From: Shouchella clausii
GTDB taxonomy: Bacteria; Bacillota; Bacilli; Bacillales; Bacillaceae_D
Direction of reading: 5' to 3'
Length of the DNA: 64,000 bases
NCBI RefSeq assembly: GCF_001598215.1
Contig: NZ_BCXJ01000004.1
Location: forward strand, 248,001-312,000
Below are positions 44,633 to 58,367 of this stretch, piece by piece (positions within the stretch are counted from its first letter, which is position 1; each line of letters opens with the position of its first letter). A program made the translations under genes and the position numbers. The notes beneath the pieces are model-generated. The model was not told the origin of the DNA, ran no database searches, and saw only the letters and a list, made by a program, of their open reading frames with translations.

Positions 44633-46162
44633 ATGGAATTAGAAAAATTTGTCGACCCTATGCCTATTATGAAAACAGCAATCCCTAAAAAAGCAAGCAG
44701 GGATGGAGATTATTACGAAATTGAAATGAAGGAGTTTTCACAAAAACTGCATCGGGATTTAAACCCGACTCGCTTATGGGGGTATGATGGCCAATTCCCT
44801 GGCCCCACGATTGAAGTGATGCGGGGAAAACCAGCTCGGATCAAATGGATGAACAACCTCCCTGATACCCACTTTCTTCCGATTGACCGATCGATTCACC
44901 ACGTTGCCCATGAACCAGAAGTTCGCACCGTCGTCCATTTGCATGGGAGCGAAACGACACCAGCAAGCGATGGCTACCCTGAAGCTTGGTTTACAAAGGA
45001 TTTTGCAGAAGTTGGGTCTTTTTTTGAACAAGAAACTTATGAGTACCCAAACGACCAAAGAGCTGCCACCCTCTGGTACCATGACCATGCAATGGGAATT
45101 ACACGCCTTAATGTGTATGCAGGGTTGAGCGGTCTATACATTATTCGTGACCCACGAGAAGAACGATTAAATTTACCAAAGGGAGAATTTGACATTCCAT
45201 TGCTGATTCAAGATCGATCTTTTAACGACGATGGCTCGCTCTTCTACCCAGCCCAGCCAGCCAATCCCGCGCCGAACTTGCCGAATCCGTCGGTTTTGCC
45301 GTTTTTTGTCGGCAATACGATTTTAGTAAACGGAAAAGTTTGGCCTTACTTGCAAGTTGAACCACGCAAGTACCGATTTCGCATTTTAAATGGATCCAAT
45401 TCACGTTCCTACCAGCTAGCCCTTGATTCAGAAGCACCCTTTTATCAAATCGCTTCAGACGGCGGTTTGTTAAGAAGGACCGTTTCTTTGCAGGCATTCG
45501 ATATCCGTCCAGCCGAACGGATTGAAGTCATCATTGATTTTAGCAAATTCGAAGGTCAAACGATTACACTGAAAAACAATGCAAGCACTGACGCCACAGC
45601 GGATGTGATGCAGTTTCAGGTCGTTCTTCCCTTATCTGGAGAAGACACAAGTATCATTCCTCAAAACCTATCCTATATCCCGTCGCTCCAGCAAAACGAA
45701 GTCAAACGGATACGAAACTTAAAGCTTTCTGGGACTACGGACGAGTACGGCAGGCCTCTCCTTTTGCTCAATAACAAACTGTGGAGTGACCCTGTTGAGG
45801 AAAAACCTTGTTTAGGAACGACGGAAATATGGTCATTCGTTAATGTCACCAACGTCCCCCATCCCATGCATATCCACTTAGTCCAATTTCAACTCTTGGA
45901 CCACCGGGCGTTTAACGTTGAGCTGTACAATGAAAATGGCCAAATCGAGTTGGTTGGGCCGACCATTCCGCCTAAAATCAATGAGCGAGGCTGGAAAGAC
46001 ACAATCACTGCGCCTGCAGGGCAAATCACTCGCGTTATTGCCCGATTTGCTCCTTTTTCCGGGCACTATGTATGGCACTGCCACATTCTCGAGCACGAAG
46101 ACTATGATATGATGCGCCCTTTCGTTGTTATTGACCCGAAAACGGAGAAGGAAGGACGATGA
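44633..46162 (+). CDS. cotA: CotA-type spore coat multicopper oxidase (laccase)
   Basis: Three-cupredoxin laccase; B. subtilis CotA (513 aa) is an outer-coat enzyme with laccase and bilirubin oxidase activity that makes the brown spore pigment. All copper motifs are present: HLHG (near 103), WYHDH (near 150), HPMHIH (near 415) and HCHILEHEDYDMM (near 488), with Met as axial T1 ligand. No signal peptide, as in CotA. Length 509 aa. aggagcgg precedes the ATG. AC-N17-CATATACCA (ending at 44606) partly fits a sigma-K promoter. In B. subtilis cotA is located elsewhere. Confidence 0.93.
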   Translation: MELEKFVDPMPIMKTAIPKKASRDGDYYEIEMKEFSQKLHRDLNPTRLWGYDGQFPGPTIEVMRGKPARIKWMNNLPDTHFLPIDRSIHHVAHEPEVRTVVHLHGSETTPASDGYPEAWFTKDFAEVGSFFEQETYEYPNDQRAATLWYHDHAMGITRLNVYAGLSGLYIIRDPREERLNLPKGEFDIPLLIQDRSFNDDGSLFYPAQPANPAPNLPNPSVLPFFVGNTILVNGKVWPYLQVEPRKYRFRILNGSNSRSYQLALDSEAPFYQIASDGGLLRRTVSLQAFDIRPAERIEVIIDFSKFEGQTITLKNNASTDATADVMQFQVVLPLSGEDTSIIPQNLSYIPSLQQNEVKRIRNLKLSGTTDEYGRPLLLLNNKLWSDPVEEKPCLGTTEIWSFVNVTNVPHPMHIHLVQFQLLDHRAFNVELYNENGQIELVGPTIPPKINERGWKDTITAPAGQITRVIARFAPFSGHYVWHCHILEHEDYDMMRPFVVIDPKTEKEGR

Positions 46163-46345
46163 GGGGGTGGAAATGAGGTTGCCCCTGGCAATCGGAAGGG
46201 CGCCAGGGGTTACGCTTGTTAAAACTTCCAGCCAGCGGCTTAGAACGCTGAGCTCTATTCTGCTTTAAGCCTTATTGTATCATTATTTACTGTATGGAAA
46301 AGAGATGAGAAAGGTTTACCTTCTCATCTTCCATGTAAATATAGT

Positions 46346-46906: not shown

Positions 46907-47767
46907 TTACCTATTAACCGGTTGCTCAAGTTTCAACATTTTGCCGACCACTTTATCTAATTCTTCGTCATTAAATACGCGTTTCCAATCTGATTTTATG
47001 ATCGCTTCTTTTCCATAATCAATAGCGATCATTGCAGCATCAGAGAATGGATTGGTTCCTTTTAAAGCAACGGATAGTGCGATTTGAATATGTCCGTAAA
47101 GCATTGCTTTTGCAGCCTTCTCAGGTACACCTTTTTTCACTGTTTCTTCCAAACTTTCCTTGAATACTGTACCAATCATACAAGTAATAACCTCTGCTAA
47201 AGTAGGTTCTAGAATGGCCATATCTTTCACGGTTATGCGATGAATCTCACCTACTGGCGCATACATGTTTCTTACTACTTCTTGGCCGACATTAAATTTA
47301 TCCTCGTCGCCTGAGTATTTTGCGATCACTACATCCTGTTCTGCTGCTATTCCGCCAAAGAAGTCTGCATGCTCTTCCTCTGTTAAATATTTTCCAAATA
47401 CAGATGGATGACAAGGATGCGCTACAATGGAAGTAATATCTTCACGCGTATGCAAAAGTCCGGCATAGGCTGCTGCTGGATCTAAAGTTAATAGAACAGC
47501 CCCAGGTTTCATATTTGGAACAATTTGTTTCGAAACATTCCCAATTGCCGTATCAGGTACAGCTAAAATAACAACATCACTGCTTTTGACTGTTTCGTTC
47601 ATCTCTGAAATTTGCAGTCCTTTAGCTTCAATCTCCTCTATCTTGCGTGGTGACGTTTCACATAGTTTTAACTCATACTCGTTACACTTTACAAGGTTAT
47701 TCGTGATTCTTGTGCCCATTTTACCGCCAGCACCTATTACCGCAACGATAGCATTTTTATCACTCAT
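46907..47767 (-). CDS. Rossmann-fold oxidoreductase of the phosphogluconate-dehydrogenase C-domain type; candidate D-apionate oxidoisomerase (ApnO-like)
   Basis: The 286-aa protein has an N-terminal NAD(P) site IGAGGKMGTRITNN (residues 11-24) and a helical C-terminal domain. This size and layout match the 'phosphogluconate dehydrogenase C-terminal domain' oxidoreductases, among which ApnO oxidises and rearranges D-apionate to 3-oxo-isoapionate. The gene overlaps the 3' end of the TIM-barrel gene upstream by eight bases. ATG at 47767 has aaggggg upstream. Context (DAK kinase, TIM, RpiB, GntP permease) fits the ApnO route. Other hydroxyacid substrates remain possible; the functional call is inferred from memory of the family. 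Confidence 0.65.
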   Translation of the reverse strand: MSDKNAIVAVIGAGGKMGTRITNNLVKCNEYELKLCETSPRKIEEIEAKGLQISEMNETVKSSDVVILAVPDTAIGNVSKQIVPNMKPGAVLLTLDPAAAYAGLLHTREDITSIVAHPCHPSVFGKYLTEEEHADFFGGIAAEQDVVIAKYSGDEDKFNVGQEVVRNMYAPVGEIHRITVKDMAILEPTLAEVITCMIGTVFKESLEETVKKGVPEKAAKAMLYGHIQIALSVALKGTNPFSDAAMIAIDYGKEAIIKSDWKRVFNDEELDKVVGKMLKLEQPVNR

Positions 47768-48563
47768 TTAAATTCCCCCTTAAATAGTCAAAACTTTTTC
47801 TCATCCACTCTTTTTCCAACCTTATAGTCTCTTCCATACTATTTGTAAAAGGTAACCATAGTTCAATGATTGCGTTCACATCTCTGTTTTCTCTTTTCAA
47901 AGCCTTTAACATCGTATCTAAATCAAGCAAACCTTCTCCCAAAGGACAACCTACTAAGGAAAATCCAACCCAACCACTTTTTCTTGTAAAAACAAAGTCT
48001 TTCACATGTAAATTTGTAACGTACGGCGCTGACAGTTCCACAACATCCTTTGGGAGCTCTAAAGCAGCGATCGTATTTCCCGGGTCTAAACAAATGCCAA
48101 CATAGGGACTGTCGATTCGCTCAACAACACTTATGATATCTTTTGTTTTCACCTGCTCATACGTCTCAATAGCTAGTTTTACTTCCGCTTTTTCGTATTT
48201 CGGGAGAACTGCGAGTAATCGTTCATAAGCTTGCTCAGTAGTAGGAGTATCCCCTACCGTGTTAAACATCGTTCTTATTAATTTCACTCCGAGAAGGTTA
48301 GCGATTCTCAAATAGTTTAATAAATGATCGGGCTTAACGCCTCGTGTGCCTAACTCTAGCTCAATGTTTAGTTCACTTGCTTTTTTGGCAATGGAGAACA
48401 GCTCACCCTCCTGCATCTTTTCTATTAAAGGATAATCACATATTTGAAAAACTTCCCCACCTAATTCTTTGGTAACCTCAAGCATTTCATCTACCGTTAT
48501 TGGGGAATCATTCTTTTCATTCAGCTGCCAAAAAAATGCATACGTACTGATTCCAACTTTCAT
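47760..48563 (-). CDS. Xylose-isomerase-like TIM-barrel protein; candidate 3-oxo-isoapionate decarboxylase (OiaC-like)
   Basis: The 267-aa sugar phosphate isomerase/epimerase-type TIM barrel has metal-ligand-type segments: LAIETYEQV (Glu near 139), GICLDPGNT (Asp near 172), VTNLHVKDF (His near 199) and NAIIELWLP (Glu near 242). In the D-apionate pathway such a protein, OiaC, decarboxylates 3-oxo-isoapionate to L-erythrulose. It is translationally coupled to the oxidoreductase that follows. ATG at 48563 has tggaggc upstream. The generic family annotation is safe; the reaction is an inference from the gene set. Confidence 0.65.
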   Translation of the reverse strand: MKVGISTYAFFWQLNEKNDSPITVDEMLEVTKELGGEVFQICDYPLIEKMQEGELFSIAKKASELNIELELGTRGVKPDHLLNYLRIANLLGVKLIRTMFNTVGDTPTTEQAYERLLAVLPKYEKAEVKLAIETYEQVKTKDIISVVERIDSPYVGICLDPGNTIAALELPKDVVELSAPYVTNLHVKDFVFTRKSGWVGFSLVGCPLGEGLLDLDTMLKALKRENRDVNAIIELWLPFTNSMEETIRLEKEWMRKSFDYLRGNLNE

Positions 48564-48629
48564 TATGGGCCTCCATTACTAGAAGTTTATAGTCATATCT
48601 AGCCACTAAGGTTGGCTGTCACTTGTTCT

Positions 48630-48686
48630 TCAAAAAGTTGGAGATTTATTGATAAAATCCATTGTCTTTCGGGCAATCTTATCCAT
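48630..48686 (-). pseudogene. Possible gene remnant between the permease and TIM-barrel genes
   Basis: ATG with aaagga upstream and 18 codons reading MDKIARKTMDFINKSPTF then stop. The end resembles the start of M18 aminopeptidases (LLDFIxKSPTPFHAV), but the match is short. A TATAAT (48726-48731) lies upstream on this strand and may really serve the TIM-barrel gene, 160 bases downstream. The whole 48564-48829 gap contains nothing else I can support. Confidence 0.25.
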
Positions 48687-48829
48687 GTTTCATTCCTTTT
48701 ATAGTGATGCCCACCTGTCTTTTCCATTATAAAGGACTATTTCTTTGCACAGAACAAAAAATGAACATTTTTAGTTTTTCTAATAGTGAGTTTATATTTC
48801 ATGCAATTCTAGTGGTATCTAGCAACTTA

Positions 48830-50194
48830 CTAAAATATCATATTGGCAATGAGAAGCATTACTAATGAAACGCCCCAAATTAATGTCATCGGGATTGACC
48901 AAACCATGATTTGCTCTTTTACATTCCTAACCCCCATTAATCTGGTTATGACATGAAAACCACTATCATTAAAGTAAGAAAAGACCAAGGCACCTAAAGT
49001 AGCTGCTTGAGCTGCAAGAAGCATATTCACATCCATATTAGCTAATATGGGTGCTGTAATTGAAGCTGAAGTTATCATCGCTACAGTCCCGCTACCTTGA
49101 ATCAAGCGAACTATACTAGCGACAAAGAACGGTATGAGAATGGCTGGGAGAGGCAAGGAGGCAACAAGTTCTGCAAGATAGTCACCTGTCCCACTATTTC
49201 TGAGAATCGTCCCTAACGCTCCACCCGCACCTGTCACTAATAAGATAATACCAGCTGAACTGATCCCTTCTTCCATACGATCTAGCGCATCAGATCGCTT
49301 CAGATGATTAAATAGCGTGTAAATAGCAACTACAAGCCCAATTCCCACCGCTATTACAGGTGAGCCAATAAACTGCAAGTACTCATAAACACCATCATTT
49401 AATCCCCCAGCACTTAATCCAGTATTCATAAAAATTAATACAATCGGTAACAGAATAGGTGTTATAGACTTAAACAGAGACGGAAGATCTTTACTTTCTT
49501 CCATGTTTACATACTCTGCAAAACTCTCTGGCTTTTCTGGACGTTTCCAGCCTAGACCCGTTTCATCTGGTAGCTGATATATTTTTTTTCCAATCCATTT
49601 AGCGTAATAAACACCGACGATAATCAATGGAATACCAAAAATTAAACCAGATAAAATCATTTGCCCGATGTCAACACCAAAGATTCCGGCTACACCTAAA
49701 GGACCAGGGGTAGGCGGCACGGCATGGTGAGTAACAATTAATCCCACCCCTAAAGCAACACCTAGACTAACGATTGATTTACCAGTCTTAGTCGATAATG
49801 CCTTAATAAGTGGTGCAAGAATAACAAATGCCGAATCTACAAAGATAGGAATAGACACGATGTACCCTGTGATGGCCATTGCCCACTCTTCTTTTCGCTT
49901 CCCTAACCACTTTAACAAGGTAAAGGCTAAGCGCTCAGCTGCCCCAGAAACCTCCAAAACCCTTCCGAGCATCACTCCAAAGCCAATAACTATACCAATG
50001 GAACCAATCGTTGATCCAAACCCCGACGTGATAGAATCAACAACATCAATTGCAGGCATTCCGCCAATTATACCTGTTAGTGCCGATGCTATAATTAATG
50101 CAGGAAATACGTGAACTTTAGTTTTTAAAACTAAAAGAATTAGGGCAAAGATCCCAACTACTAACCCTAATATCATTTGGCCTTCGGTTGTCAT
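48830..50194 (-). CDS. GntP-family sugar-acid permease
   Basis: Proton symporter of the gluconate permease family; 454 aa with about 12-14 hydrophobic segments. The signature VTHHAVPPTPGPLGVAGIFG near residue 157 is typical of GntP transporters, and PIFVDSAFVILAPL near 115 is conserved. Members import gluconate, idonate, glycerate and similar acids. In this operon it points to an acidic sugar substrate, supporting an aldonate such as apionate over a neutral polyol. The ATG at 50194 has caggagggg upstream. Confidence 0.88.
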   Translation of the reverse strand: MTTEGQMILGLVVGIFALILLVLKTKVHVFPALIIASALTGIIGGMPAIDVVDSITSGFGSTIGSIGIVIGFGVMLGRVLEVSGAAERLAFTLLKWLGKRKEEWAMAITGYIVSIPIFVDSAFVILAPLIKALSTKTGKSIVSLGVALGVGLIVTHHAVPPTPGPLGVAGIFGVDIGQMILSGLIFGIPLIIVGVYYAKWIGKKIYQLPDETGLGWKRPEKPESFAEYVNMEESKDLPSLFKSITPILLPIVLIFMNTGLSAGGLNDGVYEYLQFIGSPVIAVGIGLVVAIYTLFNHLKRSDALDRMEEGISSAGIILLVTGAGGALGTILRNSGTGDYLAELVASLPLPAILIPFFVASIVRLIQGSGTVAMITSASITAPILANMDVNMLLAAQAATLGALVFSYFNDSGFHVITRLMGVRNVKEQIMVWSIPMTLIWGVSLVMLLIANMIF

Positions 50195-50318
50195 AATTTC
50201 CCCTCCTGATTTAGCCCTTAGTAATATATCACTTAATGTTTAAACTTCACCGTATCCAAATATCTCCAGATGCGATATTCTATGAAGAAACCAACATACC
50301 AATTTAAGACTAAACCAC

Positions 50319-51260
50319 TTAAACCAGCGGATGACAACTCTCAACCACCTGCATTTTCTGTGTTTCTCCATTTAACAGGAGCGAATGAGTGGTTAAAGCT
50401 CCCTGTATGTCACTCTTAATTCCATCAATCAAGTGAGTATTCGTAACTGCCGTTGCAGAAAAGAGACAGTTAGAGGATGCAACAATATCTTGGAGCAGCA
50501 GTGGGGTTTCTGGATTTTTCAGCCCCATCGCTTCACACCTCGCCCGCTCCTGCGTTGTTTGTGGAACAAGTTTGGCTTGAAAATCCCCTCCAAGACATTT
50601 TAGGGCTACGGCAGAGATTACACCTTCCGGGGCGCCCCCTGTACCTAAAAATAAATCAATAGGGTCGCTTGCAATGGCGGTCGCAAGAGAATAGCAGATA
50701 TCTCCGTCGCCGAATAGCAGAACCTTTGCACCGAGCTCTCGCAATTCTCGGATCGTCTCTGAGTGTCTAGACCTATCTTGAATGGCAACCGTTACGTCCT
50801 CTATTCTTTTATCCTTTGCACGGGAAATTATTTCAAGATTCTTACTAATCGGATAATCAATATGCACTTCGCCAGCTGCTTCTCTACCGACAGCTAGCTT
50901 TTGCATATACATATCCGGGGCGTGCAAAAGCGTCCCTTTCGGCGAAGCAGCAATAACAGTCATTGCATCTCTCGTCCCCTTCGCTGTCATGCTCGTTCCG
51001 TCTAGTGGGTCTACAGCGATATCAATTTCGATGCCTTCCCCTAGCCCAAGTTCTTCACCAATATACAACATGGGCGCTTCATCCATCTCGCCCTCGCCTA
51101 TCACCACATTTGCTTTCATGCTCATCTGATTTAAATGCATTCTCATCGCCTCTGTTGCGACCGCATCTGCATTCATTTTGTCGCCTCTTCCGATAAGCGG
51201 ATAAGCAGCAATTGCAGCGGCTTCTGTAACGCTTACAAAATCAAGCATCAGCTGTTTCAT
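50319..51260 (-). CDS. glpX: Fructose-1,6-bisphosphatase class II (GlpX)
   Basis: Metal-dependent sugar bisphosphatase; GlpX proteins hydrolyse fructose 1,6-bisphosphate, and some act on sedoheptulose bisphosphate. Motifs VIGEGEMDEAPMLYIGE (near 55), IAVDPLDGTSM (near 81) and FLGTGGAPEGV (near 200) are present. ATG at 51260 with aaggagg five bases upstream; a GTG six codons earlier contains the SD. Product 313 aa. Within this operon it may supply fructose 6-phosphate (or sedoheptulose 7-phosphate) for reactions with erythrose 4-phosphate. B. subtilis has its own chromosomal glpX elsewhere, so this is likely an extra copy. Confidence 0.9.
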   Translation of the reverse strand: MKQLMLDFVSVTEAAAIAAYPLIGRGDKMNADAVATEAMRMHLNQMSMKANVVIGEGEMDEAPMLYIGEELGLGEGIEIDIAVDPLDGTSMTAKGTRDAMTVIAASPKGTLLHAPDMYMQKLAVGREAAGEVHIDYPISKNLEIISRAKDKRIEDVTVAIQDRSRHSETIRELRELGAKVLLFGDGDICYSLATAIASDPIDLFLGTGGAPEGVISAVALKCLGGDFQAKLVPQTTQERARCEAMGLKNPETPLLLQDIVASSNCLFSATAVTNTHLIDGIKSDIQGALTTHSLLLNGETQKMQVVESCHPLV

Positions 51261-51294
51261 CGCACCCTCCTTCGCCACATGCGCACCGGTGATT

Positions 51295-51753
51295 TTAATT
51301 ACTTGTGCTAAATTGTTCTTTTTCTTTGTCTGTAATCAACTGCACTTTCTTACCTGAACGAGATTCATCGAAGAAAGACTCTAAATAAGCCCCAGCAATC
51401 TTTTTGCCAAGTTCAGGACCGATTACTTGGGCGCCCATTGTCAGAATTTGCGCGTTGTTACTTTTTTGCGCACGTTCCGCGGAGTAAATATCGTGGCAAG
51501 TCGCTGCACGGATCCCCGGGCATTTGTTTGCGGCAATGGCTACACCAAGACCTGTACCACAAATCAAAATTCCTCGCTCAACCTCTCCTTTATTAATTGC
51601 ATCGGCCACTTCAAAGGAAACGTTAGGGTAATCCACTGCCTCACAAGAATGACAACCATAATCAATCACTTCGTGCCCTGCCTCTTCTACAAAAACTTTA
51701 ATTGTCTCTTTAAAATCGAACCCGTTGTGATCACTGCCAATGGCAACTTTCAT
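51295..51753 (-). CDS. RpiB/LacAB-family isomerase; candidate D-erythrulose 4-phosphate isomerase (DerI)
   Basis: 152-aa RpiB-type aldose-ketose isomerase. GSDHNGFDFKE (residues 6-16), VDYPN (near 42), CGTGLGVAIAANK with the catalytic Cys (near 66-78) and the active-site loop NNAQILTMGAQ (near 99) are all there. RpiB relatives act on ribose 5-phosphate, galactose 6-phosphate or, in tetritol pathways (EryI/DerI), D-erythrulose 4-phosphate. Pairing with a TIM paralogue and a DAK kinase is the known LerK-LerI-DerI set. SD gggaggt. It has its own promoter at 51791-51819. Confidence 0.8.
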   Translation of the reverse strand: MKVAIGSDHNGFDFKETIKVFVEEAGHEVIDYGCHSCEAVDYPNVSFEVADAINKGEVERGILICGTGLGVAIAANKCPGIRAATCHDIYSAERAQKSNNAQILTMGAQVIGPELGKKIAGAYLESFFDESRSGKKVQLITDKEKEQFSTSN

Positions 51754-51790
51754 GTTGATACCTCCCGATAGTTATCTTTTTTCACTATCG

Positions 51791-51843
51791 ATTGTATTCC
51801 TTTTTTATCATTTAATCAAGTTTAATTTTGTTTTATTTTATTT
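51791..51843 (-). promoter_or_regulatory. Internal promoter and candidate DeoR operator before the rpiB-like gene
   Basis: TTGATT, 17-base spacer, TACAAT (51791-51819, minus strand). Just upstream is aaaaaataaaataaaacaaa, which shares AATAAAATAAAAC with the dhaK promoter. Confidence 0.6.
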
Positions 51844-51847
51844 TTTG

Positions 51848-52606
51848 TTATTTCATTCCGTTTAACAGTTGTGTGAAGCTTTCAATATCCCAAGCCGTAC
51901 GACCAATAAACAGACCATCGACATTATCGAGCTCTTTATAAGCTTGGTAATTGTCTAGATTAATACTGCCCCCATAAAGAAGCGCGACCTCTTCTCCCCC
52001 GTCCTCAAATAACTCTTTTAATACAGTTCGAATATGCGTATGGATCTCATCTACATAGCTTGGTTCGGCTGGTCGTCCATTTTCCCCAATCGCCCAGACG
52101 GGTTCATACGCAATAAGAACCTCTTTAGCTGCTTCTTTTGTAATTCCTTTTAGACACACTTTAAGTTGCATGGTTAAGTGTTCTTTGGACGTACCATTTT
52201 CTTTTGTTTTCCAGTCTTCTCCAATGCACACAAGTGGCTGAATCCCAAAACGAAGTGCGCTTAGTACTTTCTTATTTATGGCTTCATCTGTTTCATTGTA
52301 GAATTGCCGTCTTTCTGAGTGCCCAAGCTCAATCAAATCCACTCCAACTTCTTGTAACATAAGTGGGGAAACTTCTCCCGTAAACGCCCCTCTCTCCTCC
52401 CAGTGCATATTTTGGGCACCGAGCTTGAGAGTGGAACCTTCAAGCTCGACCTTTATCGATGGTAAAGAAGGAAAGGAAGGAATAATAAACAATTGGTAGT
52501 GAGAGGGAATCGTTTTGCTTAATTGCTTTAATTTGGCCGTATACGCGAGTCCTTCCGCTGTTGTTTTTGTCATCTTCCAGTTGGTCCCGATCCAAAACGC
52601 CTTCAT
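51848..52606 (-). CDS. Triosephosphate-isomerase paralogue; candidate L-erythrulose 1-phosphate isomerase (LerI/EryH-like)
   Basis: 252-aa TIM barrel with all catalytic residues of TIM: Asn and Lys in GTNWKMTKT (residues 7-15), His in LIELGHSERR (near 95), Glu in AYEPVWAIGE (near 170) and the phosphate loop LLYGGSINLDN. Two family-level differences from glycolytic TpiA are visible: TNWKMT instead of the usual GNWKMN, and AQNMHWEERGAFTGE with Trp. EryH/LerI enzymes look like this. The gene sits in a kinase-isomerase-isomerase operon rather than beside pgk/gpm. SD tggaggc overlaps the dhaL end. Confidence 0.75.
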   Translation of the reverse strand: MKAFWIGTNWKMTKTTAEGLAYTAKLKQLSKTIPSHYQLFIIPSFPSLPSIKVELEGSTLKLGAQNMHWEERGAFTGEVSPLMLQEVGVDLIELGHSERRQFYNETDEAINKKVLSALRFGIQPLVCIGEDWKTKENGTSKEHLTMQLKVCLKGITKEAAKEVLIAYEPVWAIGENGRPAEPSYVDEIHTHIRTVLKELFEDGGEEVALLYGGSINLDNYQAYKELDNVDGLFIGRTAWDIESFTQLLNGMK

Positions 52607-52607
52607 A

Positions 52608-53255
52608 TTATGCCTCCAGCTCCATCCACTCTCTCATTGATCTAAAAATGATCCATACAGAAGTTGCACCGGCATCTTGGTGTCCAACTGCACGCTCACC
52701 TAGCGATTTGGCACGCCCAAAATTTGCTTGATACTCTTTGGTTTTCTCGACCCCTTCAAGGGCCTTTTCTTCAGCCTTTTGCAGCCCTTTTAAAAGAGGA
52801 GCATCTTCATTTTGTTTCAAGGCTTCAACCGCTGGCTGCAAGGCGTCAATCATTGTCTTATCTCCAATTTCCGCTTTGCCTCTCGTTTTAACTCCTTGTA
52901 ATGCATCGGCCATAAGACCTGCCAGAACTTTCGTGCTTAGGTTTTCGGTAGGCTCCAAGTTCTTGAGGCCACCTACAAACATCGTGCCAAAAATAACACC
53001 CGATGCGCCGCCCATTGAGGAAATCATCGACATACCAATCGTTTTAAACACATCATTGATCGTTGCCGGATCCTTTATTTCTAAATTTTCGAGTGCTTTT
53101 TTAAATCCAGTTTCCATACCAATGCCGTGATCACCGTCGCCAATTGCACTATCAATCTCTGTTAGCAGAGGCTTAGCATTAATCATTTGTTTTCCTACAT
53201 ATTGAAACATCAATTTCGTTTGTTCAACTGTAATCGCTTGCATTTGTGTTTGCAA
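52608..53255 (-). CDS. dhaL: DhaL-type ADP/ATP-binding subunit of a dihydroxyacetone/L-erythrulose kinase
   Basis: Eight-helix nucleotide-binding subunit. Mg-binding AIGDGDHGIGMETGF is near residue 43, followed by SSMGGASGVIFGTMF and GDKTMIDALQPA, and late GHQDAGATS. The start is probably the TTG at 53255, eight bases after aaggag; the ATG at 53243 is 12 bases further from it. An earlier frame overlaps dhaK. Product about 215 aa. No DhaM is present in the window, so the phosphoryl donor is probably ATP rather than the PTS, though a distant DhaM cannot be excluded. Confidence 0.85.
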   Translation of the reverse strand: MQTQMQAITVEQTKLMFQYVGKQMINAKPLLTEIDSAIGDGDHGIGMETGFKKALENLEIKDPATINDVFKTIGMSMISSMGGASGVIFGTMFVGGLKNLEPTENLSTKVLAGLMADALQGVKTRGKAEIGDKTMIDALQPAVEALKQNEDAPLLKGLQKAEEKALEGVEKTKEYQANFGRAKSLGERAVGHQDAGATSVWIIFRSMREWMELEA

Positions 53256-53271
53256 ATTCTCCACTCCTTTT

Positions 53272-54273
53272 CTAGTTATGCTTACCCCTCTTTGCGTAAT
53301 AAGGAGAGTATGCTGGTTGATCAAAATAGTTCTTTAGCTCCTCATCCAATTTCATCATGGAGATAGAGGCGCCGCCCATTTCCTGAGTTGTGCAATAATT
53401 ATTCACATCCGCATCATGAATAACGATGCCTTTATCCTTCAAAACTTCTTGAACTCGCCGATTCATAACGAAAAGTTCCAGTAACGTCGTGGAACCGAGC
53501 CCGTTTAATAATAAACAAACTTCATCCCCTGCTTGGATGTCCGATTCACGCAACAATATTTCAAGCATTTTGTCTACAAGCGCGTCAGCTTCCATTAATT
53601 TCGTACGTTCTACACCAGGCTCGCCATGAATGCCCATGCCAAATTCAATTTCATCATCCGGAATGGTGAATGTCGGCTTATCTAATCCAGGAATGGTTCC
53701 AGGCGAAAGCGCTACACCAATAGAAAACGTCGAATCACTCGCTTTTTGCGCTACGCGCGCTGTTTCATCTAAAGATAACCCTTCTCGCGAAGCTGCTCCC
53801 GCAATTTTTATAACAAAAACATCCCCAGCAATTCCTCTACGCTCTTCTTTCTTTTCGCTAGGAGCTGAAGCCACATCATCCCGTACAAGCACAGTTCTTG
53901 TCTCTATCCCGGCTAAATCCGCGAGTTCCGCTGCCATATCAAAATTCAGAATGTCGCCAGAGTAATTGCCATACACATAGAGAACACCTTGGCCTTTATC
54001 AAGCGCTTGCGTGACATCTAAAACCGTATCAGGCGTAGGAGCAGCGAATACATTCCCAATAGCAACACCATCTGCTAACCCATCGCCGACAAAGCCAAGA
54101 AATAAAGGCTCGTGCCCACTCCCTCCTCCAGTAAGAACAGAGACTTTATCTTTTAAATCGCTTACAATAATGCCATTTGCTTCTGTTTTCTTGTAATCAG
54201 TGCCATATGAAGCCAAAAACCCTTCGATGACTTGCGGAATAAGTTCTGTAGTTTGATTTAGAATTTTTTTCAT
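53272..54273 (-). CDS. dhaK: DhaK-type substrate-binding kinase subunit; candidate L-erythrulose kinase (LerK)
   Basis: 333-aa DAK1 domain. GGGSGHEPLFLGFVGDGLAD (residues about 50-69) is the signature, and the substrate-linking histidine is in MGIHGEPGVER near residue 213. First gene of the minus-strand operon, coupled closely to dhaL. DAK kinases phosphorylate dihydroxyacetone or, in tetrose pathways, L-erythrulose at C1. The TIM and RpiB paralogues downstream favour L-erythrulose. SD aggtgag precedes the ATG at 54273. The kinase call is firm, the substrate an inference. Confidence 0.85.
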   Translation of the reverse strand: MKKILNQTTELIPQVIEGFLASYGTDYKKTEANGIIVSDLKDKVSVLTGGGSGHEPLFLGFVGDGLADGVAIGNVFAAPTPDTVLDVTQALDKGQGVLYVYGNYSGDILNFDMAAELADLAGIETRTVLVRDDVASAPSEKKEERRGIAGDVFVIKIAGAASREGLSLDETARVAQKASDSTFSIGVALSPGTIPGLDKPTFTIPDDEIEFGMGIHGEPGVERTKLMEADALVDKMLEILLRESDIQAGDEVCLLLNGLGSTTLLELFVMNRRVQEVLKDKGIVIHDADVNNYCTTQEMGGASISMMKLDEELKNYFDQPAYSPYYAKRGKHN

Positions 54274-54352
54274 TTCTTGTTCTCACCTCACTAATTATCA
54301 TCGCGAAAATTTCGAATACAATCAAATGATTTTGTTTCACTTTTCACTTCAC

Positions 54353-54381
54353 AGTATAAAACCGTTTTATTTTATTGTCAA
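54353..54381 (-). promoter_or_regulatory. Sigma-A promoter of the dhaK operon with operator in the spacer
   Basis: TTGACA, 17 bases, TATACT on the minus strand. The spacer is ataaaataaaacggttt, so the shared motif AATAAAATAAAAC would be masked by a bound repressor. The divergent DeoR gene is the obvious candidate. Confidence 0.8.
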
Positions 54382-54444
54382 TTACACGTTTCACGAAATA
54401 TCTTGTTTTTTCTTTTCATTTGTTTTTGAAATAAAGTCTTCCCA

Positions 54445-54473
54445 TTGAATAAATTGCTAAATTCACATACTAT
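54445..54473 (+). promoter_or_regulatory. Sigma-A promoter of the deoR gene
   Basis: TTGAAT, 17-base spacer, TACTAT on the plus strand, about 30 bases before the SD aaggga. Confidence 0.7.
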
Positions 54474-54511
54474 AGAGACAGCAAATTAATTTTTATTAAG
54501 GGAGTTTTAAG

Positions 54512-55297
54512 ATGGCAAAGTTATTTGTTGCTGAAAGGCGCAATAAAATCATGGAGATCCTTCATAAAGAACAGAGAATTACAGTAAAAGAATTGTCCGA
54601 GAAAATGTCTGTTTCTGAGGCCACTCTCCGTATTGATCTAAACAAAATGGAGCAGGAAGGCCTGTTAAAACGCACGCACGGCGGCGCAGTTCTAAACGAC
54701 TTAGTCGAAAACGAGACAACCTTCTCCGTTCGAGAAAAGCGCAACCGCGATGCAAAATCATTGATCGCTCAAGAAGCACTGTCATTCATTCAAGATGGCT
54801 CTTGCATTTTACTTGATGCAAGCTCAACAGCACTTGAACTCGCCCGTTTACTTAAGGATGAGTCCATTAAAGTAACGGTGGTAACAAGTGGAATTTACAC
54901 AGCACTTGAACTGCGTGACAATCCTGGCATTACCGTTATATTGACGGGGGGCGTACTAAGCCGAGAGTCCAGTTCTTTAGAGGGAATGTTCGGGGCAACC
55001 GTTCTTGATCAAATTAACGTTGATTACATGTTCACGTCTGCAAACGGCTTCTCTTTCGATACAGGACTAACTGATTTTAATGTTTATGAAATTGATTTGA
55101 AAAAGCGTATGGTTGAGAAATCAAGGTCGGTCATTGCTTTAATTGATAAATCGAAAATTAATAAAATCTCTATCGCTTCATTTGCCAATGTAGACGAGAT
55201 CCATGCTTTTATTACAGACCATAAGCCAGATGAGGAGCTTCTTCATCAATTCGAGAAACATAACATCACCTTGATAACCACTTCAAAGGGTGATTAA
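54512..55297 (+). CDS. DeoR/GlpR-family transcriptional regulator
   Basis: 261 aa. The N-terminal winged helix shows the DeoR signature: RRNKIMEILHKEQRITVKEL, then SEATLRIDLNKMEQEGLLKRTHGGA (split here as SEATLRIDLNKMEQEG) at residues 8-60. The C-terminal DeoRC sensor domain, related to sugar phosphate isomerases, has ILLDASSTALELARLL, LTGGVLS and MFTSANGFSFDTG. These regulators usually bind a phosphorylated sugar intermediate and act as repressors. Divergent from dhaK and upstream of the transketolase, so it probably controls both. Confidence 0.88.
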   Translation: MAKLFVAERRNKIMEILHKEQRITVKELSEKMSVSEATLRIDLNKMEQEGLLKRTHGGAVLNDLVENETTFSVREKRNRDAKSLIAQEALSFIQDGSCILLDASSTALELARLLKDESIKVTVVTSGIYTALELRDNPGITVILTGGVLSRESSSLEGMFGATVLDQINVDYMFTSANGFSFDTGLTDFNVYEIDLKKRMVEKSRSVIALIDKSKINKISIASFANVDEIHAFITDHKPDEELLHQFEKHNITLITTSKGD

Positions 55298-55307
55298 CAC
55301 AAGAAAT

Positions 55308-55370
55308 CAAAATAAAATGAAATAAAACGATAAAAAATGATTGACTGCCGTGTTTGTTTCTGTGTACATT
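55308..55370 (+). promoter_or_regulatory. Promoter and candidate operator of the transketolase gene
   Basis: TTGACT (55341-55346), 18 bases, TACATT (55365-55370). Immediately upstream is aaataaaatgaaataaaacg, again with an AATAAAA(C) pattern as at dhaK and rpiB. Confidence 0.6.
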
Positions 55371-55384
55371 AGAACCAAACGTAC

Positions 55385-55446
55385 AGAAAGGCGGTGAACA
55401 CTACGTAACAGTTCGTGCCGTTAGCGGACTGTACACGTAGCGATTT
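55385..55446 (+). promoter_or_regulatory. Shine-Dalgarno separated from the tkt start codon by a hairpin
   Basis: AGAAAGGCGGTGA (55385-55397) matches the anti-SD complement at 12 of 13 positions but lies 49 bases before the ATG. Between them is a stem CTACGT/ACGTAG (55401-55406 with 55435-55440) extended by ACAGT/ACTGT and CCG/CGG. With the hairpin folded, the SD-to-ATG distance is 3 + 6 = 9 bases. An in-frame TAG at 55438 excludes any upstream start. Confidence 0.75.
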
Positions 55447-57453
55447 ATGATTGAACAATTAGCTATTAATACCATTCGTACATTATCCATTGACAGCATT
55501 GAAAATGCACAGTCCGGACACCCTGGACTTCCAATGGGGGCTGCTCCAATTGGCTATCAATTGTTCGCCAAGACAATGAATCATAATCCAGGGAACCCCA
55601 ATTGGTTCAATCGCGATCGCTTTATTTTGTCAGCCGGACATGGCTCAGCTCTTCTTTATAGCCTTCTGCATCTATGCGGATATGATGTATCTATCGAAGA
55701 TTTAAAGCACTTTCGTAAACTAGATAGCAATACACCTGGTCATCCCGAGTACGGCCACACGCCTGGAGTAGAAGCCACAACTGGACCACTTGGTCAAGGG
55801 ATTGCCATGGCTGTTGGAATGGCCATGGCAGAAAGGCAGCTAGCAGAGACTTACAACAAGGAGAATTTCCCTCTAATTGACCATTACACCTATTCCCTTT
55901 GTGGGGACGGGGACCTCATGGAAGGAATTTCTTCAGAAGCCGCTTCATTAGCTGGTCATTTGAAACTAGGCAAATTGATCGTTCTTTACGACTCCAACGA
56001 TATCTCCTTGGATGGTGAATTAAGTCATTCCTTCTCTGAAGATGTGGGATCCAAATTTATCGCCCAAGGATGGCATGTGGAATATGTAAAAGACGGCAAT
56101 GATTTGAAAGCGATTTCTGAGGCGATTGATCGTGCGCAAAAAGATGACCGTCCATCTCTTATAGAGGTAAAAACCATCATTGGATTTGGGTCTCCCAATA
56201 AATCAGGCTCCTCTGCCTCGCATGGAGCGCCACTTGGATCTGAAGAAGTGCTTTTGACAAAAGAAGCCTATAAGTGGACATTTGACGAAGACTTCTATGT
56301 TCCTAAAGAAGTACAAGTACACTTTTCTAGAAAGAAAAACGAAGGTGCATTACTAGAAAAGAAGTGGAATGATTTATTTGCTAACTATGAAGCGGAATAC
56401 CCTGAACTTGCAGCACAATTAAAACAAGCGATTCAAGGAAAACTACCGGCAAACTGGTATAAGTCCCTGCCAACTTATGAAATTCATTGTTCCGAAGCCA
56501 CTCGTGCTTCCTCTGGAACAGCTTTAAACGCCGCCGCCTCTCAAATACCGCAATTAGTCGGAGGATCAGCTGACCTCGCTTCTTCTAATAAAACGAATTT
56601 AAAGGGCCAAGATATCTTTAATCACTTAAACTATGGAGGTCGCAACATTTGGTTTGGTGTTCGTGAGTTTGCGATGGGTGCTGCCTTAAATGGAATGGCC
56701 CTCCATGGTGGATTGAAAGTATTTGGTGGTACGTTCTTTGTTTTCTCTGATTATTTACGCCCAGCCGTACGTCTGTCGGCCTTGATGAAATTACCTGTCA
56801 TTTATGTACTTACACACGACAGCATTGCCGTTGGAGAAGACGGACCTACGCATCAACCGGTTGAGCATCTTGCTTCGCTACGCGCTATGCCAGGATTGTC
56901 TGTCATACGCCCAGGAGATGGAAATGAGACGGTTGCTGCTTGGAGACTCGCTCTTGAAAGTGAGGACACGCCAACTGCCCTTGTCTTATCACGCCAAAAT
57001 GTACCTGTTCTATCAAACACTGCAGAACTTGCTTATGAAGGCGTAAAAAAAGGCGGTTACATTGTTTCCGAAGCTTCTAAGGAAGCAGAGCTTATTTTAA
57101 TCGCCACTGGTTCAGAACTACCACTTGCGCTTCAGGCACAGACTCAATTAGAAGCTGATGGTGTTTCTACTCAAGTCGTAAGCATGCCATCCTGGGACCG
57201 TTTCGAACAGCAGCCAAAAGCTTACAGACAGTCTGTTCTGCCCCCAACTATCAAAAGTCGCCTTGCCATTGAAATGGGATCTTCCCTAGGGTGGGCTAAA
57301 TACATTGGAGACGAAGGAGAGGTTCTTAGCATTGATACGTTCGGCGCCTCGGGAAATGGCGACCTTATTATGAAAACGTATGGATTCACTGTTGAGAATG
57401 TCGTGAATAAAGCGAAGGCACTTTTGAAAGAGACAGAAACTCTTTCTTCATAA
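55447..57453 (+). CDS. tkt: Transketolase (pathway-specific paralogue)
   Basis: ThDP enzyme moving C2 units between ketoses and aldoses; it would use erythrose 4-phosphate, the predicted end product of the operon. N-terminal [20 protein letters not shown] is standard. The ThDP motif begins [19 protein letters not shown] near residue 154, and the central domain holds [19 protein letters not shown]. Length (668 aa) is full. Start fixed by an in-frame stop just upstream. No SD lies directly before it (see leader hairpin). Probably an extra copy beside a housekeeping tkt, because it is tied to this cluster. Confidence 0.93.
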
Positions 57454-57781: not shown

Positions 57782-57822
57782 CTTCATTGACAGTATAAAC
57801 TTTTCCTAAAAAGATGTAATGG

Positions 57823-57896
<74 letters not shown>

Positions 57897-57901
57897 ATGA
57901 T

Positions 57902-57975
57902 TGGAGCGGGTGAAGGGAATCGAACCCTCATCATCAGCTTGGAAGGCTGAGGTTTTACCACTAAACTACACCCGC
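57902..57975 (-). tRNA. tRNA-Gly (anticodon UCC)
   Basis: 74-nt cloverleaf with encoded CCA: acceptor GCGGGTG/CACCCGC, discriminator T, anticodon loop CTTCCAA flanked by TCAGC/GCTGA, T-arm GAGGGTTCGATTCCCTT. Its 5' half is repeated twice upstream. Confidence 0.96.
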
Positions 57976-58288
57976 ATTTTAAATTAAGCTAATTTCTTTA
58001 TTTCGAGCACCGTACTTTATGCCTCTTCCTCTACTCGCCTATTCAACGATGTTCATGCGTCGAGGCAACTCGATGTCTATTCACAGATGTTTCGCTCGTG
58101 GCTGAGGTTTTACCACTAAACTACACCCGCATTTTAAATTAAGCTAAATTTCTTTATTTCGAGCACCGTACTTTATGCCTCTTCCTCTACTCGTCTATTC
58201 GATGATGCTTATGCGTCGAGGCAACTCGATGTCTATTCACGGATGTTTCGCTCGTGGCTGAGGTTTTACCACTAAACTACACCCGCAT
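57945..58288 (-). repeat. Tandem 155/156-bp repeat carrying 5' halves of tRNA-Gly
   Basis: The unit runs from the anticodon stem of tRNA-Gly through its 5' end and about 120 bases of upstream DNA. Copies start at 57945, 58100 and 58256; the third stops after the tRNA part. The two extra 5' halves (GCGGGTG to CTCAGCC) are identical to the intact gene. The spacers differ at only about six positions, so the duplication is fairly recent. Confidence 0.95.
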
Positions 58289-58367
58289 TTTTATTACAAG
58301 CGATTCCTATTGTTTGATGACCCCATTATGTACATGCAAAGCGCCGCTTACAGCAGCGACGCTTATA

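Follow-up and report, generated by a model that had tools for sequence, protein, structure and literature searches.

What does a block of ten adjacent catabolic genes allow Shouchella clausii to consume, and where does the product enter central metabolism? The block lies at positions 46907–57453 of the 64,000-nt stretch of S. clausii DNA analysed here (the window, to which all coordinates refer; its own genome is designated G000). An original prediction had described it as an accessory island that converts a sugar acid, with D-apionate as the best fit, to erythrose 4-phosphate, and we put the probability of this reading as a whole at roughly 0.6. Profile searches matched each of the ten open reading frames (ORFs) to the family named for it. 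Eight are read from the minus strand, in the transcription order dhaK, dhaL, a TIM-family paralogue, rpiB, glpX, gntP, a xylose-isomerase-like TIM barrel and a PGDH_C oxidoreductase, while a DeoR regulator and a transketolase are transcribed divergently from the plus strand.

Genomic context and distribution of the island

As proposed, the ten-gene stretch is an accessory island; it lies at a tRNA site. Homology to a close relative (G1065) ends at position 46190 and restarts at 57818, a tRNA-Arg gene adjoins the break, G1065 as a whole contains nothing that matches the oxidoreductase gene, and the G+C content of the island is low (0.418, versus 0.458 for the remaining window). The lowest-G+C 10.5-kb stretch, scanned in steps of 500 bases, starts at 46001 (0.412; mean 0.450). 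The empty site of G1065 measures 212 bp between matching flanks, and the multicopper oxidase and yfcE genes that flank the island directly adjoin there. At the right-hand edge of the insertion lie tRNA-Arg (TCT) (57820–57896, minus strand; ARAGORN) and, beside it, tRNA-Gly (TCC) (57902–57975). The same site in another genome (G1062) is occupied by other genes, restriction-modification/transposase-like by eye. Separately, we observed that a ~156-bp repeat next to the genuine tRNA-Gly (TCC) gene contains two further copies of its 5′ half (57945–58322); this stretch aligns in several registers with G1065 and G1062.

All ten proteins recur at 99.65–100 % identity in a locus of S. tritolerans (same species). 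The congener G1064 has all ten genes in identical order at another chromosomal place (51–79 % identity; the transketolase is cut by the end of the stretch), and Oceanobacillus carries them split into two blocks. The recurrence of the set in these genomes indicates that the grouping is not due to chance. Gene content, conserved co-location, the family placement of each protein and the insertion are direct observations. The oxidoreductase was found in 1/299 phylum genomes and 4/397 order genomes by single-protein search, and in 4/398 class genomes and 5/41 family genomes by alignment search; each count includes G000, and the last also includes a second genome of the same species. A contig scan with the single protein returned two loci, and no relative was detected in viral contigs among the pattern-matched stretches of two scans (2 and 120 stretches).

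A predicted route from a sugar acid to erythrose 4-phosphate

Each reaction, substrate and regulatory step described below is predicted from these observations. The GntP-family sugar-acid permease (48830–50194, minus strand; GntP 421.5 bits; TIGR00791 329.7, cut-off 292.75) would bring in a sugar acid of five carbons, D-apionate being the most likely candidate. The ApnO-like NAD-type oxidoreductase (46907–47767, minus strand; PF16896 199.9 bits; best solved relative 5t57, 218.4 bits), a predicted acid oxidoisomerase/dehydrogenase, would oxidise the acid with NAD to a 3-oxo acid, with a hydroxymethyl shift if the acid is D-apionate. The OiaC-like TIM-barrel protein (47760–48563, minus strand; PF01261 (AP_endonuc_2) 69.3 bits), a predicted 3-oxo-acid decarboxylase, would then release CO2 to give L-erythrulose. 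No OiaC-named model is among the NCBI-model matches of this protein. Structure predictions from three-row alignments were of low confidence (mean pLDDT 41.8 for the oxidoreductase and 56.6 for the TIM-barrel protein).

Phosphorylation of L-erythrulose to L-erythrulose 1-phosphate is assigned to a putative two-gene LerK, composed of a DhaK-type substrate-binding half (53272–54273, minus strand; PF02733 (Dak1) 380.5 bits) and a DhaL-type nucleotide half (52608–53324, minus strand; Dak2 182.2 bits; TIGR02365 188, cut-off 138.3). The listed TTG start of dhaL overlaps dhaK, and the true start is probably further in. The window DhaK is closer to the DhaK of the Rhizobium etli apiose locus (48 % identity, 320 bits) than to the other, DhaKLM-type DhaK of G000 (39 %, 213 bits). 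The DhaKLM-type dhaK1 model (cut-off 406.25) likewise separates them, as it is passed by that second G000 protein (434) and missed by the window (360.7) and R. etli (389.9) proteins.

The TIM-family paralogue (51848–52606, minus strand; 252.9 bits) is a predicted LerI that would isomerize L-erythrulose 1-phosphate to D-erythrulose 4-phosphate. Its best solved relative is an L-erythrulose-1-phosphate isomerase (11ef, 219.8 bits; the best triosephosphate isomerase (TPI) scores 192.6). A tree of 38 sequences places thirty TPIs in a clade with support of 100/100 and the window paralogue outside it, although long branches leave the deeper order unsure. Model NF000722 (cut-off 293) is passed by the paralogues of the window (326.5), G1064 (312.8) and R. 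etli (424.4) and missed by the true TPI of G000 (251.7) and its third TIM protein (220.5). By its sequence kinship to 11ef and its place outside the TPI clade, the paralogue appears to be of the LerI type.

The RpiB-family isomerase (51295–51753, minus strand; PF02502 176.8 bits), a predicted DerI, would complete the conversion of D-erythrulose 4-phosphate to D-erythrose 4-phosphate. The transketolase (55447–57453, plus strand; TIGR00232 945.6 bits, cut-off 682.25), together with the GlpX-type bisphosphatase (50319–51278, minus strand; GlpX family 400.4 bits; TIGR00330 366.1, cut-off 259.3) and a host transaldolase/aldolase, could pass this product into the pentose phosphate pathway. GlpX is a predicted fructose- or sedoheptulose-bisphosphatase, the latter role being conjectural. 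Elsewhere, G000 encodes its own TPI, a DhaK-DhaL pair with a DhaM-like ORF (by eye), a transaldolase and a second GlpX (G000:C1:268560). We also noted a gene group comprising a DeoR regulator, a class II aldolase, two phosphotransferase-system-type genes (by eye) and a lyxose-isomerase-like cupin protein at L021 2503–9771 (G000, C1) and L003 2141–6573, followed in L021 by a second DhaK-DhaL-RpiB-TIM set of G000 with other partners.

Comparison with known pathways

D-apionate is reportedly catabolised by an ApnO-OiaC-LerK-LerI-DerI route (Carter et al., 2018, Nat Chem Biol 14:696). All five enzyme types occur in the window, likeness here being by family rather than by direct sequence comparison; the window differs from that route in its two-gene kinase, GlpX and GntP. 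The OiaC type of pathway is mostly known from Gram-negative bacteria.

A stretch of plasmid p42f of R. etli CFN 42 (L022) encodes OiaX (783.9, cut-off 700), the apionate lactonase ApnL (1049.7, cut-off 750) and DerI (257.9, cut-off 240). It also holds genes for a PGDH_C oxidoreductase and a TIM paralogue, and its dhaK and dhaL are not fused. As the locus is named by the OiaX, ApnL and DerI models, the PGDH_C family is tied to D-apionate by context. This apiose/apionate locus resembles the window in its PGDH_C, TIM and RpiB paralogues and separate DhaK and DhaL; it differs in encoding an OiaK-type kinase, OiaX, an ABC importer, a Gfo/Idh dehydrogenase and ApnL, with no OiaC-like gene in the stretch, whereas GntP, GlpX, transketolase and DeoR are features of the window. 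Growth on D-apiose is reported for a strain with an ApnO, OiaK, OiaX-type cluster (PMC11747546).

Clusters on plasmids of Pantoea At-9b (L008) and Erwinia E602 (L009) also bring together RpiB, DAK, TIM, TIM-barrel and PGDH_C genes, and that of Pantoea includes a transketolase; unlike the window, both have a fused DAK, an MFS protein of acid-transporter type, another regulator and a more distant TIM paralogue. Directly after the regulator of the Pantoea cluster lies a lumazine-synthase-annotated gene (L008 13982–14419). The split kinase and built-in transketolase, which the original prediction had taken as marks of a distinct version, are thus not distinctive, having precedents in R. etli and Pantoea, respectively.

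The Listeria gol operon, which also encodes DhaK/DhaL types, is a further point of comparison. It shares transketolase, RpiB and TIM types with the window; the passages on lmo0341–0351 consulted in PMC10247797 mention in addition a transaldolase and genes of glycerol metabolism, and name no pair for acid oxidation. A literature word search returned nothing on a Bacillus operon taking erythrulose to erythrose 4-phosphate. Overall, the island does not look like a novel type of system, but like a Gram-positive relative of the published apiose/apionate pathway.

Locus types and the identity of the acid

Loci encoding the PGDH_C oxidoreductase were sorted by their partner genes. In the tetrulose (T) type, the PGDH_C and TIM-barrel genes accompany DAK and TIM-paralogue genes; the six T loci span two phyla (the window, G1064, Oceanobacillus, G397 and the Pantoea and Erwinia plasmids), RpiB being encoded in 5/6 stretches and transketolase in 4/6, with a fragment in G397. 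The Oceanobacillus locus additionally encodes a transaldolase. The G397 locus has a TRAP-type importer (by eye), a GlpX gene that is broken in this copy and no RpiB within the 20 kb read; a second copy at the opposite contig end carries PGDH_C and TIM-barrel genes in pieces. GntP adjacent to GlpX was seen in the window's species and G1064 only. In the pentulose (P) type, the same pair (L016 5856–10037 in G420; L040 5820–13697 in G1066) accompanies L-ribulokinase (772.3 and 771.4 bits, cut-off 428) and AraD (406.1 and 405.6, cut-off 389.1). G1066 additionally has a TRAP set, and G420 has ORFs that by eye resemble binding proteins. Visual inspection of the P stretches revealed no arabinose isomerase, and no search was aimed at one. 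In the X type, PGDH_C accompanies a RuBisCO-like protein and an OiaK-type kinase (R. etli, Roseibium, Haloterrigena, G644, G813 and G774). Two Shinella loci of this type have the RuBisCO-like protein in the stretch, while a Sinorhizobium meliloti gene (L010) was assigned to X by its place in the tree; the stretch from a like strain (L023) has ABC-importer and Gfo/Idh genes, without a RuBisCO-like protein or OiaK-type kinase.

All five enzyme types occur together in five T loci, and four of the five in G397, lending support to the predicted conversion of a sugar acid to erythrose 4-phosphate; we consider passage of an acid through erythrulose to erythrose 4-phosphate highly probable. The D-apionate part of the prediction is plausible, and this acid is, with somewhat less assurance, our preferred main substrate. 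The window oxidoreductase appears to be a member of the ApnO family, in view of its PGDH_C domain, its 38 % identity to the R. etli protein and its retention of group-constant residues: a comparison of a small sample (6 T, 2 P and 9 X rows, with G948 left out of the groups) revealed 46 positions with the same residue in T (6/6), P (2/2) and X (≥85 % of 9). His176 is found in T and in 8/9 X proteins, where both P proteins have Tyr, and it is one of three positions, the others being V/I, that join T to X against P.

Several observations weigh against the D-apionate reading. The Pantoea TIM paralogue (190.5) falls below the NF000722 cut-off along with the true TPI, so this model is no clean LerI test and is suggestive only. 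The window RpiB falls below the cut-off of the DerI model NF051858 (159.8 versus 240), as does that of Pantoea (179.2), although this model, whose short name ends in Rhiz, may be too narrow. The ApnL model (NF049900) has no match in G000 and matched 1/14 genomes or records, namely R. etli; the original prediction had likewise seen no apionate lactonase and expected growth on the free acid, which fits this lack, as would a different acid. G948 (L039, L051 and L052) encodes a T-clade oxidoreductase (62 %) near an OiaK-like kinase, an SDR protein, an ABC importer and an amidohydrolase, and the 40 kb read there contains neither an OiaC-like nor a DAK gene; its kinase (468.1) and that of R. etli (473.2) are both below the OiaK cut-off (700). 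In the oxidoreductase tree (18 sequences, midpoint root), T and G948 form a clade (99/98), which P joins (100/99), while X, including the R. etli protein, stands apart (100/99). The window protein is thus in the tetrulose-type clade, which adjoins one with other partner genes and is separate from that of the R. etli protein, to which it is only 38 % identical. At three residue positions T differs from X and P together, and of the three positions linking T to X, two are only V/I.

The pair is not tied to one substrate, because its sister clade sits with L-ribulokinase and AraD. The strongest alternative keeps the same route with another acid, a linear L-pentonate (e.g. L-lyxonate, L-xylonate or L-arabinonate) being oxidised at C3 and the 3-oxo acid decarboxylated to erythrulose with no need for a hydroxymethyl shift. 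The acid permease as the sole transporter gene of the island, the absence of a sugar dehydrogenase or lactonase gene within it, the TRAP-type importer of G397 and the missing ApnL match would all suit such a substrate, as would the P clade, whose partners L-ribulokinase and AraD are what decarboxylation of a C6 acid to L-ribulose would call for. However, no oxidoreductase position groups T with P against X among the 17 rows compared, the Pantoea T locus has an ABC sugar importer with an SMP-30-like domain, fitting entry as a sugar, and the stereochemistry is argued from chemistry alone; we regard a linear pentonate as unlikely.

The TIM-barrel proteins point to a related division. The window protein shares 44–73 % identity with its counterparts in the five other T loci, and the motifs QICDYP and ETYEQ are common to 6/6 T members, which come from two phyla; the two P members carry QIADN and ENHDRH instead. 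These differences suggest one function across T and another in P, the P pair being predicted to serve a pathway from a C6 acid to L-ribulose. We tentatively propose that the pair could be a portable oxidise-and-decarboxylate module split by chain length, with the window type taking a C5 acid (perhaps a linear L-pentonate) to erythrulose and the G420/G1066 type a C6 acid to L-ribulose for AraB/AraD, an idea we hold as rather unlikely. We know of no description of either chain-length version, judging by word searches of the literature, none of which was aimed at the L-ribulose one.

A third explanation has the pair converting a C4 acid (a tetronate) to dihydroxyacetone, which DhaK and DhaL would phosphorylate to dihydroxyacetone phosphate, with the TIM paralogue as a true TPI and GlpX as a fructose bisphosphatase. 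The family names fit, and between the Oceanobacillus blocks lie a PdxA gene and one resembling D-threonate kinase (257.8 bits, cut-off 450), but RpiB and transketolase would be left without a role, the TIM paralogue falls outside the TPI clade with an L-erythrulose-1-phosphate isomerase as its nearest solved relative, and G000 already has another DhaK-DhaL set, of the DhaKLM type, making this highly improbable. Equally improbable is a pairing of an acid-oxidation unit (GntP, TIM barrel and PGDH_C) with a separate erythrulose/tetritol unit, to which the three genes between the Oceanobacillus blocks and the second DhaK-DhaL-RpiB-TIM set of G000 could point, as the genes form a single block in the window, G1064, G397, Pantoea and Erwinia.

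Regulation of the island

The DeoR-family regulator (54512–55297, plus strand; C-terminal domain PF00455 163.9 bits, PF08220 59.5 bits) is likely a repressor of the island genes, and homologues (56–57 %) adjoin the same genes in G1064, Oceanobacillus and G397. A promoter-like site precedes dhaK (TTGACA-17-TATACT, 54353–54381, minus strand; 11/12 consensus matches); the region holds 27 promoter-like sites, versus 27.0 in shuffles. An exact 15-bp palindrome (54356–54370) overlaps this site and is a possible operator. As to other regulatory signals, one 10-base word occurred in three of the seven intergenic regions and no 11-base word did, and we do not regard the former as an operator. Four cre-like sites, by a consensus pattern, were counted in the window (mean in shuffles 1.81), a number reached in 14/100 shuffles, and we make no claim for them.

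Significance

If the D-apionate reading is correct, names would need correcting, as NCBI models would label the TIM paralogue as triose-phosphate isomerase and the RpiB paralogue as ribose-5-phosphate isomerase B. The P sister clade, in turn, offers a predicted new route to L-ribulose that is directly testable. For the Bacillaceae, the island would extend the OiaC type of pathway for a branched plant-sugar acid to this family, in the form of a tRNA-site island with a free-acid permease.

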